Shown piece after piece: positions 1-20,050 of a DNA stretch of 64,000 bases. Every line of letters starts with the position of its first letter. The stretch's first letter is position 1. Below the pieces are notes generated by a model that worked only from the letters and a program-made list of their open reading frames with translations, had not been told where the DNA came from and did no database searches. This DNA comes from Ancylobacter crimeensis (GTDB lineage Bacteria; Pseudomonadota; Alphaproteobacteria; Rhizobiales; Xanthobacteraceae). The position numbers and the translations under genes were made by a program. The stretch covers positions 310,001-374,000 of the forward strand of contig NZ_JALKCH010000006.1 of NCBI RefSeq assembly GCF_023016805.1. The letters run 5' to 3'.

Positions 1-808
1 TGATGGCCGCCGCGGTTTCCTCGATGGAGCGGCGCGTGACGTCGATCACCGGCCAGCCGGCACGGGCGCAGAGCTGGCGCGAATGGGCAACTTCCTGTGC
101 CACGGCGTCTTCGTCGATATAGGATTCGTCGCCCTGGAGCGCGTTGAGGCCGAGCAGCCGGTTGCGGCGGATCTCCACCACCCGCTGCGCGCTCGCGACC
201 AGCCCGACGACCAGCGGATGCTTGAGTTCGTAGAGCCCCGGGGGGACCGGAACATTCGGCACCAGCGGGATGTTGGCCGTCTTGATGCCCCGATTGGCGA
301 GATAGATGCTGGTCGGCGTCTTCGAGGAACGCGAGATGCCGAGCAGCACCACGTCCGCACCTTCCAGCCCCTCGGTGTGCTGGCCGTCATCATGAGTGAC
401 CGTGAAATTCATCGCGTCGATGCGGCGGAAATACTCGCCGTCGAGCTGATGCTGGCCGCCCACCCGCGGGGTCGGCTCGCCGCCAAGATAGGCCTGGAAC
501 AGCCGCACCACCGGCGCGAGAACCGAAAGCACCGGGATGCTGTTGCGGGTGCAATAGGTTTTCAGCCGGTCGCGCAATTCGCGGTCGGTCAGGGTGTAGA
601 GCACGATGCCGGGCTGGGCCTCGATATCGACCAGCACGCGGTCGAGCTGCTTCTGGTTCCGCACCAGCGGATAGATATGCTCGATAGGACGGGCGGAGCT
701 GTATTGCGCCGCCGCGGCACGGCCGACGCTGATCAGCGTCTCGCCCGTGGAGTCGGAGACGAGATGGAGATGGAAATAGCTCTCCGATGCCAGGTTCGTC
801 TCGCTCAC
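1..808 (-). CDS. ppsR: PEP synthase/PPDK regulatory protein (PpsR, DUF299), 3' end cut by window edge
   Basis: Bifunctional serine/threonine kinase and Pi-dependent pyrophosphorylase of the DUF299 family, which switches phosphoenolpyruvate synthase or pyruvate phosphate dikinase off and on. Reading the minus strand from a GTG at 808 gives about 269 residues with no stop before the window edge. The family's typical N-terminal SDSTGET (residues 18-24) and the P-loop-like GISRSSKT (157-164) are visible. The start is fixed because an in-frame TAG lies two codons upstream of the GTG. Usual family length is about 270-280, so only a few residues are missing. The homologue in Rickettsia (RP001) and Caulobacter also sits beside hemE at the replication origin. 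Confidence 0.93.
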
Positions 809-811
809 TTG

Positions 812-833
812 CTATCCACAGCCCTGTGGGTGA
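812..833. promoter_or_regulatory. Inverted pair of DnaA-box-like 9-mers
   Basis: CTATCCACA at 812-820 and the reverse-oriented TGTGGGTGA at 825-833 share the perfect inverted core CCACAG-CC-CTGTGG (816-829). They differ from the consensus by one and two bases. They lie immediately upstream of the ppsR start codon, so DnaA bound here could also affect ppsR transcription. Confidence 0.5.
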
Positions 834-895
834 CCTGTCGAAAAAGCCACGTGGTGGGACGTCTGACAAGGTCTGTCTGGGGACAGCGGGGTTTC

Positions 896-924
896 ATGTC
901 CACAATAGAACGCGATGTGGACGA
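896..924. promoter_or_regulatory. Second inverted pair of weak DnaA-box-like 9-mers
   Basis: ATGTCCACA at 896-904 and TGTGGACGA at 916-924 form a perfect 7-bp inverted repeat, GTCCACA (898-904) with TGTGGAC (916-922). Each differs by two bases from the DnaA consensus. Assignment is by resemblance and location only. Confidence 0.4.
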
Positions 925-992
925 TCCTATGAAGGTGGGCTGGGGAATCGAGGATAACTCGCCACAGCCTCGCAACACCGCGGCCACACTCG

Positions 993-1008
993 TTAATTTT
1001 TGGTTAAC
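993..1008 (+). promoter_or_regulatory. CtrA binding site (TTAA-N7-TTAAC)
   Basis: TTAATTTTTGGTTAAC matches the full alphaproteobacterial CtrA consensus TTAA-N7-TTAAC with exact 7-bp spacing (TTAA at 993-996 and 1004-1007). In Caulobacter, phosphorylated CtrA bound at such sites silences the origin. Here the site lies about 36 bp upstream of the predicted hemE -35 element, so it could control both origin firing and hemE. Confidence 0.75.
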
Positions 1009-1043
1009 GAGGCGCGCCCGACAAGGCCTGGCGTGGGGATTGG

Positions 1044-1072
1044 TTGTCGATAGGCCGTAACCCGGCTAATCC
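1044..1072 (+). promoter_or_regulatory. Predicted sigma-70 promoter for hemE
   Basis: TTGTCG at 1044-1049 and TAATCC at 1067-1072 are separated by 17 bp and precede hemE by about 45 bp. Strong transcription of hemE through the origin is known in Caulobacter; that this promoter plays that part is inferred. Confidence 0.45.
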
Positions 1073-1118
1073 GCACCCACAAACTACAAAGACTCCATAG
1101 GAAAGAGATTTATAAAGT

Positions 1119-2174
1119 ATGAACGGGGTAGTGGAGGAATGCCTGCCGGACAGCCCGCTGCTCCAGGCACTCAACGGTCGGGTACCCGCGCGGGTTCCGA
1201 TCTGGATGATGCGTCAGGCGGGGCGCTATCTGCCCGAGTACCGGGCGTTGCGGGAGAAGGCCGGCGACTTCCTCTCGCTCTGCTACAACCCCGATTTCGC
1301 CACCGAGGTCACGCTCCAGCCGATCCGCCGTTTCGGCTTCGACGCGGCGATCCTGTTTTCCGACATTCTCGTGGTTCCTCATGCTCTTGGCTGCGATCTT
1401 CGGTTCGAGCAGGGCGAAGGGCCACGCCTCTCGACCGTCACCTCGCTGGCGGATCTCGACGGCCTTCGCTCCCAGCTCGACCCCGACAAGGTGGGGCGCG
1501 TCTATGAGGCGGTCGCGAAGATCCGGGCGTCTCTGCCACGCGAAACCGCGCTTCTCGGCTTCTGCGGCGCTCCCTGGACGGTTGCGACCTATATGGTGGC
1601 CGGGCGGGGCGGCGACGAACAGGTGCCGGCCCGACGGGCGGCCTATCGCGACCCGGTCTTCTTCGCCGCTCTGATCGACCGGCTGGTCGAGGCCTCCGCC
1701 ACCTATCTGATCGCCCAGTTCCGTGCCGGCGCCGATGCGGTGCAGATCTTCGACAGCTGGTCCGGCGTGCTCGATCCGGAGGAATTCCGGCGATGGGTGG
1801 TCAGTCCGATCAGGAGGATTGTGAGTGCAGTCAGGGCGGAGATTCCGGGCGCACCCATCATTGCCTTCCCGAAAGGCGCCACCCTCTCCGGGCTCACCGA
1901 ACTCGCCTTCGCGACCGGCGTGAACGGCATCGGGCTGGACTGGACCGCGGACCGCCGGAACGTGCGTGCCGCGCTCGGTGCCCGCTTCGCGCTCCAGGGC
2001 AATCTCGATCCGCTCCGGCTCATCGCCGGCGGGCGTGCGCTGGATGAGGGGATCGACGCGCTGATGGCGGATTTCCGCGGCGCCGCCCATATCTTCAATC
2101 TCGGCCACGGCATCCGTCCGGAAACGCCGATCGCCCATGTCGAGCAGATGCTGAAACGGGTCCGGGGTTTCTGA
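1119..2174 (+). CDS. hemE: Uroporphyrinogen decarboxylase HemE
   Basis: Decarboxylates the four acetate side chains of uroporphyrinogen III to give coproporphyrinogen III in haem synthesis, in the cytosol. The 351-residue product carries the family signature RQAGRYLPEY at residues 32-41 and the C-terminal glycine- and histidine-rich HGI region (LGHGI), and has the usual family length. The ATG at 1119 follows a purine-rich AGGAAAGAG, set rather far upstream. It is the first gene to the right of the predicted origin and is followed after two bases by hemJ, so haem genes and the origin share one regulatory region. Confidence 0.97.
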   Translation: MNGVVEECLPDSPLLQALNGRVPARVPIWMMRQAGRYLPEYRALREKAGDFLSLCYNPDFATEVTLQPIRRFGFDAAILFSDILVVPHALGCDLRFEQGEGPRLSTVTSLADLDGLRSQLDPDKVGRVYEAVAKIRASLPRETALLGFCGAPWTVATYMVAGRGGDEQVPARRAAYRDPVFFAALIDRLVEASATYLIAQFRAGADAVQIFDSWSGVLDPEEFRRWVVSPIRRIVSAVRAEIPGAPIIAFPKGATLSGLTELAFATGVNGIGLDWTADRRNVRAALGARFALQGNLDPLRLIAGGRALDEGIDALMADFRGAAHIFNLGHGIRPETPIAHVEQMLKRVRGF

Positions 2175-2176
2175 AC

Positions 2177-2602
2177 ATGGCCTATGAGTGGATCAAGGCG
2201 CTGCACGTCGTCGCCATCATCTCCTGGATGGCGGGCATGCTCTATCTGCCGCGGCTGATGGTCTATCATTGCGACGCCCCGGCGGGGTCCGCGCAGTCGG
2301 AGACCTTCAAGGTCATGGAGCGCCGGCTGCTGAAGGCCATCATCAACCCGGCGATGATCGTGGCGTGGCTGTCCGGCCTGACGCTGGCCTGGCAGGGCGG
2401 CTGGTTCTCCGATGGCTGGCTTCACGTGAAACTGGTGCTGGTGCTGGCGATGAGCGCGGTGCACGGCATGATGTCGGGCTGGGTGCGGCGGTTCGGCGAG
2501 GACCGCAACACCCGTTCCGCGCGTTTCTATCGGATCGCCAACGAGGTCCCGACCGTGCTGATGGTCGCCATCGTGATCATGGTGGTGGTGAAGCCGTTCT
2601 GA
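2177..2602 (+). CDS. hemJ: Protoporphyrinogen IX oxidase HemJ (UPF0093 membrane protein)
   Basis: A 141-residue integral membrane protein with about four hydrophobic helices. It matches the HemJ family, which oxidises protoporphyrinogen IX to protoporphyrin IX in bacteria lacking HemG or HemY. Histidines in the first helix (His10) and near residue 33 (VYHCD) are the sort of conserved ligands seen in the family. It starts two bases after hemE, so the two are probably co-transcribed. A degenerate parS-like palindrome is embedded at 2418-2433. Confidence 0.9.
2418..2433. other. Degenerate parS-like palindrome inside hemJ
   Basis: GGCTTCACGTGAAACT matches 13 of the 16 bases of the parS consensus TGTTTCACGTGAAACA, with the central TTCACGTGAA intact. 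Mismatches are at positions 1, 3 and 16. It may be a weak ParB site or a chance match. Confidence 0.35.
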
Positions 2603-2770
2603 TTTCCCGTTCCCGCTTTTCTCGCGTCCCGCCCTTGCGGGGAATCGCTGCGCCGCCTATGTTGACGGCGCTTTCCACAAAGCTGGCTGGCGCACGCGTC
2701 CTTTTCCGCATCTTCTCCAGATGGCGGCAGTGCACCGGGACAGGGACCCAAGCCTTGCGGCGGTCCGCTT

Positions 2771-2858
2771 CCACAGACCAGCTCCTCCTTCTTCCTTCCC
2801 AGTCCCGGCCCGCGCCTTGTGCCGATCCGGCCCTGCCAAACTTCCGAGGCCTTTTCCC
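2771..2858 (+). promoter_or_regulatory. Pyrimidine-rich rho leader
   Basis: The 256-bp gap between hemJ and rho ends in a long C/T-rich, G-poor stretch around 2771-2820. Such stretches resemble Rho utilisation sites, and rho is autoregulated by premature termination in its leader in other bacteria. Autoregulation here is inferred. Confidence 0.35.
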
Positions 2859-4124
2859 ATGGGGGAAATGAAGCTCCAGGACCTCAAGTCCAAGAATCCG
2901 GCCGAACTCCTCGTGTTCGCCGAGGAACTGGAGGTCGAGAACGCCAGCACGCTGCGCAAGCAGGAGCTGATGTTCGCCATCCTGAAACAGCTCGCCGCCC
3001 GTGAGACCGACATCATCGGCGAGGGCGTGGTCGAGATCCTGTCCGACGGTTTCGGCTTCCTGCGCTCGCCGGACGCCAATTACCTTCCCGGCCCTGACGA
3101 CATTTATGTCTCGCCCTCGCAGATCCGCCGCTTCGGCCTGCGCACCGGCGACACGGTGGAAGGCCAGATCCGCAGCCCGAAGGATGGCGAACGCTATTTC
3201 GCGCTGCTCAAGGTCAACACCATCAATTTCGAAGACCCGGACAAGATCCGGCACAAGATCAACTTCGACAACCTGACCCCGCTCTATCCCGACGAGCGGC
3301 TGAAGCTGGAACTCGAAGACCCGACCCGCAAGGATTTCTCCGCGCGCGTCATCGACATCGTGGCCCCGATCGGCAAGGGCCAGCGCGGCCTGATCGTCGC
3401 GCCGCCGCGCACCGGCAAGACGGTGCTGCTGCAGAACATCGCCCAGTCGATCACCACCAATCATCCCGAGTGCTACCTCATCGTGCTGCTCATCGACGAG
3501 CGGCCGGAGGAAGTCACCGACATGCAGCGCTCGGTGAAGGGCGAGGTGGTGTCCTCCACCTTCGACGAGCCGGCAGCACGCCATGTGCAGGTCGCGGAAA
3601 TGGTGATCGAGAAGGCCAAGCGGCTGGTCGAGCACAAGCGCGACGTCGTCATCCTGCTGGATTCGATCACCCGTCTGGGCCGCGCCTACAACACGGTGGT
3701 GCCGTCCTCCGGCAAGGTGCTGACCGGCGGTGTCGATGCCAACGCCCTGCAGCGGCCCAAGCGCTTCTTCGGCGCGGCCCGCAACATCGAGGAAGGCGGC
3801 TCGCTGACCATCATCGCCACCGCGTTGATCGAGACCGGCTCGCGCATGGACGAAGTCATCTTCGAGGAGTTCAAGGGCACCGGCAATTCCGAGGTGATCC
3901 TCGACCGCAAGGTGTCGGACAAGCGCGTCTTCCCGGCGATCGACATCACCCGCTCCGGCACCCGCAAGGAAGAGCTGCTGGTTGCGGCCGACCAGCTCAA
4001 GAAGACCTATGTGCTGCGCCGCATCCTGAACCCGATGGGCACGGTCGACGCCATCGAGTTCCTGATGGACAAGCTGCGTCAGACCAAGACTAATGGCGAC
4101 TTCTTCGATTCCATGAACACCTGA
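2859..4124 (+). CDS. rho: Transcription termination factor Rho
   Basis: Hexameric RNA-dependent ATPase that ends transcription at C-rich transcripts. The ATG at 2859 gives 421 residues beginning [10 protein letters not shown], the exact length and N-terminus typical of alphaproteobacterial Rho; the frame is open further upstream, but that part has no family resemblance. The N-terminal RNA-binding domain, a Walker A segment (APPRTGKT) and the Q- and R-loop regions of the ATPase domain are present. It follows hemJ on the same strand after a pyrimidine-rich leader and is followed by a hairpin terminator. Confidence 0.97.
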
Positions 4125-8103: not shown

Positions 8104-8119
8104 CGTTTCACGTGAAACG
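8104..8119. other. parS site 1 (between mnmE and mnmG)
   Basis: CGTTTCACGTGAAACG is a perfect palindrome whose central 14 bases are identical to the parS consensus; only the outermost pair (C/G instead of T/A) differs. It starts one base after the mnmE stop codon. parS is loaded by the CTP-dependent clamp ParB, encoded at 11699-12583. Confidence 0.9.
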
Positions 8120-10135: not shown

Positions 10136-10789
10136 ATGGTTCCGCCCCTCGATTTGCCCTCCGATCGCGCCCGCGCGCTGGCCCTCACCCCTGTTTCACG
10201 TGAAACAGAAGACCGGCTGGTCGCCATCGTCGCGCTGCTGGAGAAGTGGCAGAAGACGATCAATCTGGTCGCACCGGCGACGCTGCCGGAAATCTGGACG
10301 CGCCACATCGCCGATTCGCTTCAGCTTGTCGCGCTGGCGCCGGGCGCGGTGCGCTGGGTCGACCTCGGCTCCGGGGGCGGTTTTCCGGGCCTCGTGGTCG
10401 CCGCAGCGCGGGCCGACGATCCCGGCATGGATGTCACGCTGGTGGAAAGCGACAGCCGCAAGGCGGCCTTCCTGCGCGAGGCGGCACGTATCGGCGAGTT
10501 GCCTGTGACCGTGCTGCCGAACCGGATCGAGGCCGTGGCCGAGCGCATCGCGCCGGGGGTGGAGGTGGTTTCGGCGCGCGCGCTTGCGCCATTGCCGAAA
10601 CTTCTGGAGCTCGCCGCGCCCTTTCTTGCGCAAGGCGCGCGAGGGCTGTTCCTCAAGGGTCAAGATGTTGATAACGAATTGACCGAAGCCTCTAAATCTT
10701 GGAAGATTCAGGCCACAACGCATCCAAGCCTCACCCATGGCGAGGGGCGCATTCTTGTGGTCGAGCACGCCGGGAAGCGGCACATATGA
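10136..10789 (+). CDS. rsmG: 16S rRNA (guanine527-N7)-methyltransferase RsmG (GidB)
   Basis: Methylates G527 of 16S rRNA using S-adenosylmethionine. The 217-residue protein has the AdoMet-binding motif DLGSGGGFPGL at residues 76-86. A GAAAGG precedes the ATG. Residues 19-24 (PVSRET) are encoded by a perfect 16-bp parS site, so this segment is constrained by DNA as well as protein function. Located between mnmG and parA, as in many alphaproteobacteria. Confidence 0.96.
   Translation: MVPPLDLPSDRARALALTPVSRETEDRLVAIVALLEKWQKTINLVAPATLPEIWTRHIADSLQLVALAPGAVRWVDLGSGGGFPGLVVAAARADDPGMDVTLVESDSRKAAFLREAARIGELPVTVLPNRIEAVAERIAPGVEVVSARALAPLPKLLELAAPFLAQGARGLFLKGQDVDNELTEASKSWKIQATTHPSLTHGEGRILVVEHAGKRHI
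10192..10207. other. parS site 2, inside rsmG
   Basis: TGTTTCACGTGAAACA is identical to the 16-bp parS consensus. It lies in rsmG codons 19-24, about 9 kb from the predicted origin and 1.5 kb upstream of parB. Confidence 0.95.
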
Positions 10790-10853: not shown

Positions 10854-11672
10854 ATGAGCGAGCTTCCCCCGCATCTGGCTCCCCGCGTTCTGGCGCTCGC
10901 CAACCAGAAGGGCGGCGTCGGCAAGACCACGACCGCGATCAATCTCGGCACCGCGCTGGCCGCGATCGGCGAACGGGTGTTGATCATGGATCTCGACCCG
11001 CAGGGCAATGCTTCCACCGGTCTCGGCATCGAGCAGCGGGAGCGGCGCGTGTCGAGCTATGACGTGCTGGTGGGCGACGCGCCGATGAGCGAGGCACTGC
11101 TGCCGACCGCCGTGCCGCGTCTGTCGCTGGTAGCTTCGACCATGGACTTGTCCGGCCTGGAGCTGGAGATCGCGGGCTTCAAGGATCGTGCGTTTCGGCT
11201 CCGAAACGCCATCCGCGCCATGAGCGAACCGACTGGTACGAGCCCGTTCGACTACATCCTGATCGATTGTCCGCCTTCCCTGAACCTCATCACCATCAAC
11301 GCGATGGCGGCGGCCAATGCGATCCTGGTGCCGCTACAATGCGAGTTCTTTGCCCTTGAGGGGCTTTCACAGCTCCTCAAGACGGTGGAGCAGGTGCGCA
11401 CCACGCTCAACCCGCAGCTCACCATCCACGGGGTGGTGCTCACCATGTTCGACGCCCGCAACAACCTGTCCAACCAGGTGGTCGAGGATGTGCGGCAGTT
11501 CCTTGGCGCGAAGGTGTACGAGACGATCATCCCGCGCAATGTGCGGGTTTCCGAAGCGCCGTCCTACGGCAAGCCGGCGCTGCTTTACGACCTGAAATGC
11601 ACCGGCTCGCAGGCCTATATTCGTCTCGCTTCCGAAATTATCCAGCGCGAGCGCGAACTGAGGGCCGCCTGA
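10854..11672 (+). CDS. parA: Chromosome-partitioning ATPase ParA (Soj)
   Basis: Deviant Walker-A ATPase that forms the nucleoid gradient used to move ParB-parS complexes. The 272-residue protein carries NQKGGVGKTTT at residues 17-27 and the usual switch regions. A GAGGA ribosome binding site precedes the ATG. parB follows after 26 bp and is surely co-transcribed. Confidence 0.97.
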   Translation: MSELPPHLAPRVLALANQKGGVGKTTTAINLGTALAAIGERVLIMDLDPQGNASTGLGIEQRERRVSSYDVLVGDAPMSEALLPTAVPRLSLVASTMDLSGLELEIAGFKDRAFRLRNAIRAMSEPTGTSPFDYILIDCPPSLNLITINAMAAANAILVPLQCEFFALEGLSQLLKTVEQVRTTLNPQLTIHGVVLTMFDARNNLSNQVVEDVRQFLGAKVYETIIPRNVRVSEAPSYGKPALLYDLKCTGSQAYIRLASEIIQRERELRAA

Positions 11673-11698
11673 GCGCGCGTCTGTAAGAGGAGAAGCCG

Positions 11699-12583
11699 AT
11701 GGCCATGCCGGATGAGAACGGACGTTCCCGCCTCGGACGCGGGCTTGCCGCGCTGATCGGCGATGTGCGCGAGGAAAACGCTGCGCCGGAGCGGCCCCAC
11801 GCCGGCCAGCGCCGGGTGCCGGTCGCATTCCTGCGGCCCAACCCGCGCAATCCGCGCCGCACGTTCGGTGAGGCGGAGCTGGCCGAGCTTGCGGAATCGA
11901 TCCGTGCCCGCGGCGTGATCCAGCCGATCGTGGTTCGTGCGGCCGGGCCGGAGAGCTTCGAGATCGTCGCCGGCGAGCGGCGTTGGCGGGCGGCGCAGGC
12001 CGCCGCGCTGCACGAGGTCCCGATCGTCGTGGTCGAGGTGAACGACCGCGAGGCGCTCGAGATTGCGATCATCGAGAACGTCCAGCGCGCCGACCTCAAC
12101 CCGCTGGAAGAGGCGATGGGCTATCAGGCGCTGGCGGATCAGTTCGCCTATTCGCAGGCCGATGTCGCCCGCATCATCGGCAAGAGCCGCAGCCATGTCG
12201 CCAACACGCTGCGCCTGCTCAAGCTGCCCGATGAGGTGAAGACCTATCTGGCCGATGGCCGCCTCTCCGCCGGCCATGCCCGCGCTCTGCTGACGCAAGA
12301 GGATCCGGCCGCGATCGCACGGGCCATCGTCGAGCAGGGCATGAATGTGCGCGAGGTCGAGGCACTGGCGCAGGAACTGAACCACGCCCGCGCCGAGGCC
12401 GAAGGACGGCCGGCGCGGGTGCGCGCGCCCGTCGATGCCGATACCCGCGAGATGGAGCGCCGCATCGCCGATGCGCTCGGCCTGAAGGTCGTGCTGAAGC
12501 ATGACGGCGAAAAGGGCGAATTGCGCATCCGCTACACTTCGCTGGAGCAGCTCGACGAGCTCGCCCGCCTGCTCGGCGCCTGA
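11699..12583 (+). CDS. parB: Chromosome-partitioning protein ParB (CTPase clamp)
   Basis: Binds parS, hydrolyses CTP and slides on DNA to form the partition complex. Visible features in 294 residues: an N-terminal GRGLAALIGD segment as in other chromosomal ParBs, the CTP-binding GERRWRA motif (92-98), ENVQRADLNP (126-135), a helix-turn-helix (about 151-176) and a C-terminal dimerisation domain. An AGGAG site precedes the ATG. Two good parS sites lie within 3.6 kb upstream. It converges with holA, 15 bp away. Confidence 0.97.
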   Translation: MAMPDENGRSRLGRGLAALIGDVREENAAPERPHAGQRRVPVAFLRPNPRNPRRTFGEAELAELAESIRARGVIQPIVVRAAGPESFEIVAGERRWRAAQAAALHEVPIVVVEVNDREALEIAIIENVQRADLNPLEEAMGYQALADQFAYSQADVARIIGKSRSHVANTLRLLKLPDEVKTYLADGRLSAGHARALLTQEDPAAIARAIVEQGMNVREVEALAQELNHARAEAEGRPARVRAPVDADTREMERRIADALGLKVVLKHDGEKGELRIRYTSLEQLDELARLLGA

Positions 12584-19360: not shown

Positions 19361-20050
19361 ATGGATGCCGACGCCGCCGAATCCGCTCAGGTGAGCGCCC
19401 ATCTGGCGGAGGTCCGCACGCGGATCGCCACCGCCACCCGCGACGCCGGACGGCCTGAAGGTAGCGTGCGGCTCATCGCCGTGTCCAAGACCTTCGATGC
19501 CCCCCATATCCGCCCGGCTCTGGAGGCCGGCCAGCGGCTGTTCGGCGAGAACCGTGTGCAGGAAGCGAGGGCAAAGTGGCCGGAGCTGACGGCGGACCAT
19601 TCCGATGTCGAGCTGCATTTGATCGGACCCCTCCAGACCAACAAGGTGCGCGATGCGCTCGGCCTTTTCGACGTGATCCACACGCTGGACCGCGAATCGC
19701 TTGCCGTTGCGCTCGCGAAGGAGATGGCGCGGCTCGAAGGCCGGCCGGCGCCGCGGCTGCTGGTGCAGGTGAACACCGGCGAGGAGCCGCAGAAGGCCGG
19801 CATCCCGCCGCTGGACGCCGACGCCTTCCTCGCCCGCTGCCGCGAGACGCACGGGCTCGTCATCGACGGACTGATGTGCATTCCCCCGGCGGACGAACCG
19901 GCCGCGGCGCATTTCGCGCTGCTCGCCACCATCGCCCGGCGCAACGGCCTCGCCACGCTCTCCATGGGGATGAGCGGCGACTACGAGACCGCGATCCAGC
20001 TCGGCGCCACCCATGTGCGGGTCGGCAGCGCGATCTTCGGGCATCGCTGA
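19361..20050 (+). CDS. yggS: Pyridoxal-phosphate homeostasis protein YggS (PROSC/PLPBP family)
   Basis: Binds PLP without a known catalytic activity and keeps vitamin B6 pools balanced. The ATG at 19361 has a strong GAGGAAGG upstream and gives 229 residues. The PLP lysine is Lys43 (IAVSKTF), and FGENRVQE and SMGMSGDYETAI are conserved signatures. Converges with the L,D-transpeptidase gene 18 bp away. Confidence 0.94.
   Translation: MDADAAESAQVSAHLAEVRTRIATATRDAGRPEGSVRLIAVSKTFDAPHIRPALEAGQRLFGENRVQEARAKWPELTADHSDVELHLIGPLQTNKVRDALGLFDVIHTLDRESLAVALAKEMARLEGRPAPRLLVQVNTGEEPQKAGIPPLDADAFLARCRETHGLVIDGLMCIPPADEPAAAHFALLATIARRNGLATLSMGMSGDYETAIQLGATHVRVGSAIFGHR

Follow-up and report, generated by a model that had tools for sequence, protein, structure and literature searches.

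A probable chromosomal origin between ppsR and hemE of Ancylobacter crimeensis, with a CtrA-type motif that recurs at other Hyphomicrobiales loci

Introduction

The origin of replication of Caulobacter crescentus, Cori, which was identified experimentally, and that of Rickettsia prowazekii share a position between ppsR and hemE, as described in PMC1914354, and this flank is the expected origin position for alphaproteobacteria. At Cori, the CtrA consensus is given as TTAA-N7-TTAA (PMC1914354, PMC4285127) and the core of the W-boxes as TCCCCA (PMC4285127); for Hyphomonas, the CtrA consensus is reported as TTAA-N7-TTAAC (PMC7200025). CtrA sites had been seen at no origins besides those of Caulobacter and possibly Rickettsia, according to a 2015 review (PMC4468827). 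Here we describe a 310-bp gap between ppsR and hemE in a window of 64,000 bp, bases 310001-374000 of contig C23 (385,003 bp) in a draft genome of 26 contigs and 4.30 Mb. The gap is very probably a chromosomal origin of the ppsR-hemE class, to which reading we assign a probability of roughly 90% from its sequence and that of its relatives. Such an origin is ordinary in kind and expected; the unexpected part is a CtrA motif within it and the spread of that motif over the order.

Results

The original prediction placed a chromosomal origin at positions 809-1118 of the window, and both the open frames and the profile matches of the flanking ppsR and hemE genes show these limits to be correct. We read the gap as an origin because of its position, its cluster of DnaA-type boxes, its conservation within the genus, and a switch in the polarity of GGGNAGGG (KOPS) whose best-fitting place is hemE in two relatives assembled as one contig, all of which support the earlier claim. 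Genes in the window follow the order ppsR (reverse strand), gap, hemE, hemJ, rho, a long frame, mnmE, mnmG, rsmG, parA and parB. parS and parAB lie about 7-11.5 kb from the gap, which we count as support for an origin; parS-type matches with up to three mismatches to TGTTTCACGTGAAACA, which we take to be the consensus, number three compared to 0.04 expected. The AT content of the gap (0.45) is above that of the surrounding DNA (0.28-0.38 in 2-kb steps across the window). The dnaA gene is located on a different contig, C20.

When any 9-mer with at most two mismatches to TTATCCACA is considered box-like, the gap holds nine of them. The mean across the 385-kb contig is 0.30 per 310 bp, and the maximum of nine is reached here alone; dinucleotide shuffles of the gap contain 0.74 on average, and none of 1000 shuffles reaches nine. 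With the limit lowered to one mismatch, the window as a whole shows no enrichment (4 boxes compared to 2.42 expected) and a single one falls in the gap; what stands out is therefore the clustering of weak boxes. This matches what had been described from the letters alone, namely four box-like 9-mers in two inverted pairs, each with one or two mismatches; we find one with a single mismatch and three with two (Table 1). None of the six exact copies of TTATCCACA in the whole draft lies within the gap, and all six are on the + strand of the contigs as given. Three TCCCCA cores are present in the gap, a number equalled or exceeded in 1 of 1000 shuffles; one stretch elsewhere on the contig, near 175.2 kb, reaches four per 310 bp. 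Matches to the pattern TGTGGA-N2-30-TCCACA fall solely outside the gap.

The AT-rich patch that had also been noted is real and corresponds to a perfect CtrA-type site, TTAA-N7-TTAA, at 993-1007, which is enclosed in an inverted repeat (Table 1). It is the sole such site in the window and is absent from 100 shuffles. Across the draft, the longer form TTAAN7TTAAC accounts for nine matches at seven places (two of the places being read on both strands), compared to 0 and 1 for the reversed control. Perfect CtrA-type sites number two on the window's own contig, including the one in the gap, two in 400 kb of the one-contig congener G018, and none in 400 kb of the other one-contig congener, G015. 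CtrA itself is encoded in the genome (NF045991, 422 bits against a cut-off of 350), and the best PDB match of the protein, 4qpj_C, is named CtrA.

The gap was compared across 31 loci of the genus: that of the window, those of 29 further species, and L050, which shares an identical gap sequence with L047 from G005. Since L050 is from A. tetraedralis, this identity suggests that the genus is Ancylobacter as GTDB defines it. ppsR and hemE are arranged head to head in all 31 loci, with gaps of 299-495 bp (307-311 bp in 14 of them), the starts of both genes having been projected from the proteins of the window. In the alignment of the 31 loci, one identical pair included, 97 of the 310 gap columns are at least 90% conserved. 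Retained motifs are TCATCCACAG-S-CTGTGCAT at the ppsR end, TGGGGA, TCCACA, GGATAA, TGGGG, and a block preceding hemE, with per-site conservation spanning 18 to 31 of the 31 gaps; some boxes are weaker in the window species than in its congeners. In most of the congeners, the DnaA part is retained and the CtrA site is missing.

The KOPS motif served to confirm the Azorhizobium caulinodans origin, as reported in PMC2443382. We counted GGGNAGGG in twenty 20-kb stretches each of G018 and G015, sampled more densely near hemE, and fitted two changes of polarity on a 20-kb grid. For G018, the best fit puts the reverse-to-forward switch at 1.06 Mb (hemE is at 1,060,034) and the terminus at 3.5 Mb, with forward/reverse counts of 26/4 and 8/22 on the two arms. 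For G015, the switch is put at 3.48 Mb (hemE at 3,479,404) and the terminus at 1.5 Mb; the arms count 16/13 and 8/39 with the antipode taken as the terminus. The original prediction named a GC-skew minimum as its check, and on the window's own contig, one of the 26, the outcome is divided: the best skew step lies at 316 kb, 5 kb from the gap (310.8-311.1 kb on the contig), and the plain cumulative minimum lies elsewhere, at 196,300. A step as good was found in 104 of 5000 block permutations, and the right-minus-left difference in skew taken at 311 kb was reached by 3 of 5000.

Besides that cumulative minimum, several observations weigh against an origin at this gap. The bootstrap range of the skew step on the own contig is wide (190-351 kb), and GGGNAGGG shows no switch at the gap there (forward/reverse 16/19 to the left and 4/7 to the right), the sites being sparse at 46 in 385 kb. 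Within two log units of the best fit, the origin of G018 could also lie at 0.02-0.84 Mb, and that of G015 ranges over 3.48-3.60 Mb. If the terminus is constrained to lie opposite the origin, 16 of 232 grid points rank ahead of hemE in G015, and when GGGCAGGG is used alone, 17 of 233 grid points do so in G018 and 25 of 232 in G015. GC skew in the sampled stretches of these two genomes shows no clear pattern. The G-box TGATCCACA does not occur within the gap and is not enriched over the window, whose sole exact copy is at 19674, and the IHF consensus WATCAN5WTR is absent from 791-1130. Lastly, the CtrA-type site is found in just 2 of the 31 genus loci, those of this species and G006.

Collinearity with G018 and G015 extends about 20 kb to either side of the gap. 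A block located -263 to -123 kb from the gap is found inverted and on the opposite side of the origin in both of these genomes, as after an origin-spanning inversion. We considered such an inversion as the cause of the missing GGGNAGGG switch on the own contig and set this explanation aside, since an inversion of that type should preserve polarity.

To place the CtrA-type site in a wider setting, ppsR-hemE gaps were collected from two sources. hemE matches in 98 genomes included 30 genus loci; upstream stretches were obtained for 60 of the other 68 and 8 were left out. Two of the 60 ended at contig edges (one of them, G042, is in no gap count), and among the 58 usable stretches ppsR lay within about 1.2 kb in 46 and not in 12. 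The second source was 80 named loci, the best 80 of 593 matches, a few of which are Sphingomonadales or other non-Hyphomicrobiales by title; of the 79 numbered L051-L129, 52 with ppsR entered the gap counts and 27 were without it. The resulting set of 129 gaps, with genus gaps trimmed at 312 bp (30 of 31 distinct), contains 30 sites in 28 gaps, and 122 gaps are left after removal of near-copies.

TTAA-N7-TTAA occurs 29 times in 27 of these 122 non-redundant gaps, and spacers of 3-6 and 8-14 bp yield 0-4 sites each. Outside the genus there are 28 sites in 39,367 gap bases compared to none in 369,477 surrounding bases; these surroundings are mostly coding and so provide no control for intergenic DNA, for which the spacers other than 7 serve instead. 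Taking one genome per family, the site is present in 12 of 29 families besides the window's. Sites start 8 to 356 bp from ppsR, and 18 of 30 start between 131 and 242 bp, as in the window. None was found in the 11 named Mesorhizobium loci, in agreement with the absence described in the literature.

hemE loci without a ppsR neighbor (12 from the first source and 27 from the second) have the site in 5 of 39 cases. Five of the six loci among these with at least three DnaA cores (TCCACA or TCCCCA) in about 500 bp carry it, and none of the 33 with fewer than three does, the threshold of three having been chosen after the data were seen. Since the site is present with the box cluster and absent from hemE loci that lack it, the motif tracks the box cluster and not hemE. 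Nineteen of the 33 loci belong to L055-L075, mainly Bradyrhizobium by title. In loci of this Bradyrhizobium type (L055-L075 and similar), no ppsR is within reach of hemE and 0-1 DnaA cores lie upstream, and hemE seems to have departed from the origin.

These counts bear on the explanation that competes most closely, in which the gap is an origin and hemE transcription is the target of the motif at 993-1007, or the motif is simply an AT-rich palindrome that melts, with no control of initiation by CtrA. Its presence in so few congeners would fit such a role, as would the scatter of sites at 27-482 bp from the hemE start across gaps, with no one fixed place. A mere melting patch, however, needs no particular spacer, and the gaps favor exactly 7 bp; a role at hemE sits poorly with the 33 hemE loci that lack both box cluster and site. 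We consider this explanation less likely than not, though of appreciable probability. As for the pattern as a whole, the chances seem to us about even that CtrA directly controls the origin in many Hyphomicrobiales other than the models Sinorhizobium meliloti and Brucella, with apparently repeated gain and loss, in which case the reputed absence of such control from the order would reflect the sampling of model species.

It is improbable that the gap is no more than a divergent promoter region, with ppsR to the left and hemE to the right, in which the DnaA and CtrA motifs regulate those two genes and the origin lies elsewhere. Both flanking genes do point away from the gap, the own contig offers no GGGNAGGG switch, and a bipartite element within the gap (Table 1) fits a promoter of ppsR. 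Against a promoter role alone stand the association of the CtrA-type site with the DnaA cores in hemE loci without ppsR, subject to the post hoc threshold, and the best fit of the polarity switch, which falls at hemE in G018 and G015. The bipartite element was first read as a site for an origin protein, and this reading was dropped as the element stays with ppsR in five loci where hemE is not adjacent. The form AAGSCCAYG-N15-CAAG has its sole match in 1.12 Mb of background in G018's own gap, with one further match outside any gap, in L063. A stricter form (AAGGCC), which the window itself does not match, is present in 35 of 149 family genomes, and 26 of the 30 such loci that were read adjoin ppsR (21 also with hemE in the locus and 5 without), leaving 4 with neither. 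The five in which ppsR keeps the element without hemE nearby are L257, L258 and L263-L265. The RTG of the element was also tried as the start of ppsR and rejected, since it holds no fixed frame with that gene (9, 27 and 7 of 43 gaps in the three frames). Most likely the element is a leftward ppsR promoter, as judged from its sequence against what we take to be the Caulobacter consensus.

Overlapping the bipartite element, GGAAC-N17-CGTT is found in 16 of the 31 genus gaps (L023, L025-L029, L032-L037, L039-L042) with no other spacer from 10 to 25, and it is absent from the window species. It resembles the consensus of a general-stress (EcfG) promoter.

At 196.3-196.6 kb of C23, the cumulative skew minimum falls together with a perfect TTATCCACA (196585) and a perfect CtrA-type site (196597). 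That the contig's origin lies there instead is highly improbable and was rejected, because this stretch, AT-rich by eye, adjoins a resolvase/recombinase gene (PF00239, PF07508), lies about 7 kb from a phage-integrase gene (PF00589), holds at most 3 box-like 9-mers per 310 bp compared to 9 in the gap, and may belong to a mobile island, which alone could shift cumulative skew. The perfect TTATCCACA and CtrA-type site here are three bases apart, and the region (C23:193-204 kb; L012, L013) may be a mobile island controlled by the cell cycle of its host.

Features of the gap and its neighbors are collected in Table 1. An Rfam search of window positions 1-3000 gave no match up to E 1, and a scan of 700-1300 for sigma-70 promoter and terminator consensus sequences found nothing.

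Table 1. Positions of genes, motifs and conserved elements in and near the ppsR-hemE gap (window coordinates).
Feature	Position	Strand	Basis
ppsR (DUF299/COG1806, RP001-type)	2-808	-	NCBIfam NF003742, 332 bits against cut-off 225; open frame; 3' end beyond window edge
Putative chromosomal origin (oriC), 310 bp	809-1118		Box density; head-to-head gap in genus; polarity switch in relatives
DnaA-box-like CTATCCACA	812-820	+	1 mismatch; TCCACAG or TCCCCAG at same place in 30/31 genus gaps
DnaA-box-like TCACCCACA	825-833	-	2 mismatches; inverted partner of 812-820; CTGTG there in 30/31 genus gaps
Bipartite element AAGCCAYG-N15-CAAG	844-870		31/31 genus gaps, spacing 15 in 30; spacing 15 in 15/98 other gaps
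W-box core TCCCCA	878-883	-	TGGGGA at same place in 28/31 genus gaps
DnaA-box-like ATGTCCACA	896-904	+	2 mismatches; TCCACA there in 31/31 genus gaps
DnaA-box-like TCGTCCACA	916-924	-	2 mismatches; inverted partner of 896-904; CTGTG/TTGTG in 27/31 genus gaps, ATGTG in window
W-box core TCCCCA	941-946	-	Motif scan
DnaA-box-like TTATCCTCG	949-957	-	GGATAA there in 28/31 genus gaps; GTGGATAA in 18, window not among them
CtrA-type full site TTAA-N7-TTAA (993-1007) in perfect 8-bp inverted repeat CTCGTTAA/TTAACGAG	989-1011		CTCGTTAA-N7-TTAACGAG
W-box core TCCCCA	1034-1039	-	TGGGG there in 30/31 genus gaps
hemE-proximal conserved block	1040-1118	+	Genus alignment and consensus; probably hemE promoter and leader
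GANTC (CcrM-type) sites	1091-1095 and 945-949		GANTC in hemE-proximal block in 23/31 genus gaps
hemE	1119-2174	+	TIGR01464, 392.7 bits against cut-off 302.95
Perfect parS TGTTTCACGTGAAACA (presumed consensus)	10192-10207		Within start of rsmG; second copy with 2 mismatches at 8104-8119
parA and parB	10854-12583	+	ParA/MinD-type matches under their own cut-offs; ParB domain TIGR00180 above its own cut-off

Discussion

If the gap functions as an origin, DnaA would load on the weak paired boxes at 812-957, in the ppsR half, and would then spread over the weak W-boxes, and the AT-rich stretch on the hemE side is the probable site of melting. Phosphorylated CtrA would bind at 993-1007, beside or over the melting stretch, and by analogy with Caulobacter its binding may hold back initiation until it is removed.

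Silencing of the origin by CtrA was worked out in Caulobacter, and studies of S. meliloti and Brucella found no CtrA at their origins. Hyphomicrobiales is an order with diverse cell cycles. If many of its members carry working CtrA sites at the origin, the coupling of CtrA to the origin would be a labile trait across the order. With the site in this species and G006 and not in the other congeners, the effect of a CtrA site on an otherwise shared origin can be tested directly. No report of CtrA sites at Hyphomicrobiales origins was found in a search of open-licence literature, and as far as this search shows, the spread of CtrA motifs over the origins of this order is new.

Like the window gap, Cori of C. 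crescentus is flanked by ppsR (CC0001) and hemE and contains weak DnaA boxes, TCCCCA and TTAA-N7-TTAA. It is described as having two TGATCCACA G-boxes, five CtrA sites and an IHF site (PMC1914354, PMC4285127, PMC8959179), in contrast to the single CtrA-type site of the window gap, which has neither of the other two elements.

Within the window's own family, the origin of A. caulinodans ORS571 (AZC_4717/AZC_0001) is the nearest comparison, and we infer that genome G042 represents it. Its contig is cut inside hemE; its 323-bp gap has the same ppsR/hemE flanks, DnaA cores and two perfect CtrA-type sites, at 159 and 264 of 323 bp from ppsR. The first is comparable in place to the window's site, at 185 of 310 bp, while the second, about 45 bp from hemE, has no counterpart in the window.

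The R. prowazekii origin also shares the ppsR (RP001) and hemE flanks, and Brassinga 2002 reportedly concerns CtrA and IHF sites at that origin, going by its title. It is given as 384 bp with 82.6% AT (PMC1914354), compared to 310 bp and 45% AT for the window gap.

S. meliloti and Brucella abortus have a conserved gene cluster around the origin, according to PMC2443382. The S. meliloti origin is described as lacking the motif and as not bound by CtrA (PMC4433202), unlike the window gap with its CtrA motif, and in B. abortus the binding reported for CtrA is to several promoters and not to the origin (PMC2877005). Outside the order, CtrA sites were predicted in 2007 at the origins of Wolbachia, Anaplasma, Ehrlichia and Rickettsia (PMC1914354), and in Hyphomonas neptunium, also of another order, a CtrA signal adjoining the origin was measured by chromatin immunoprecipitation (PMC7200025).
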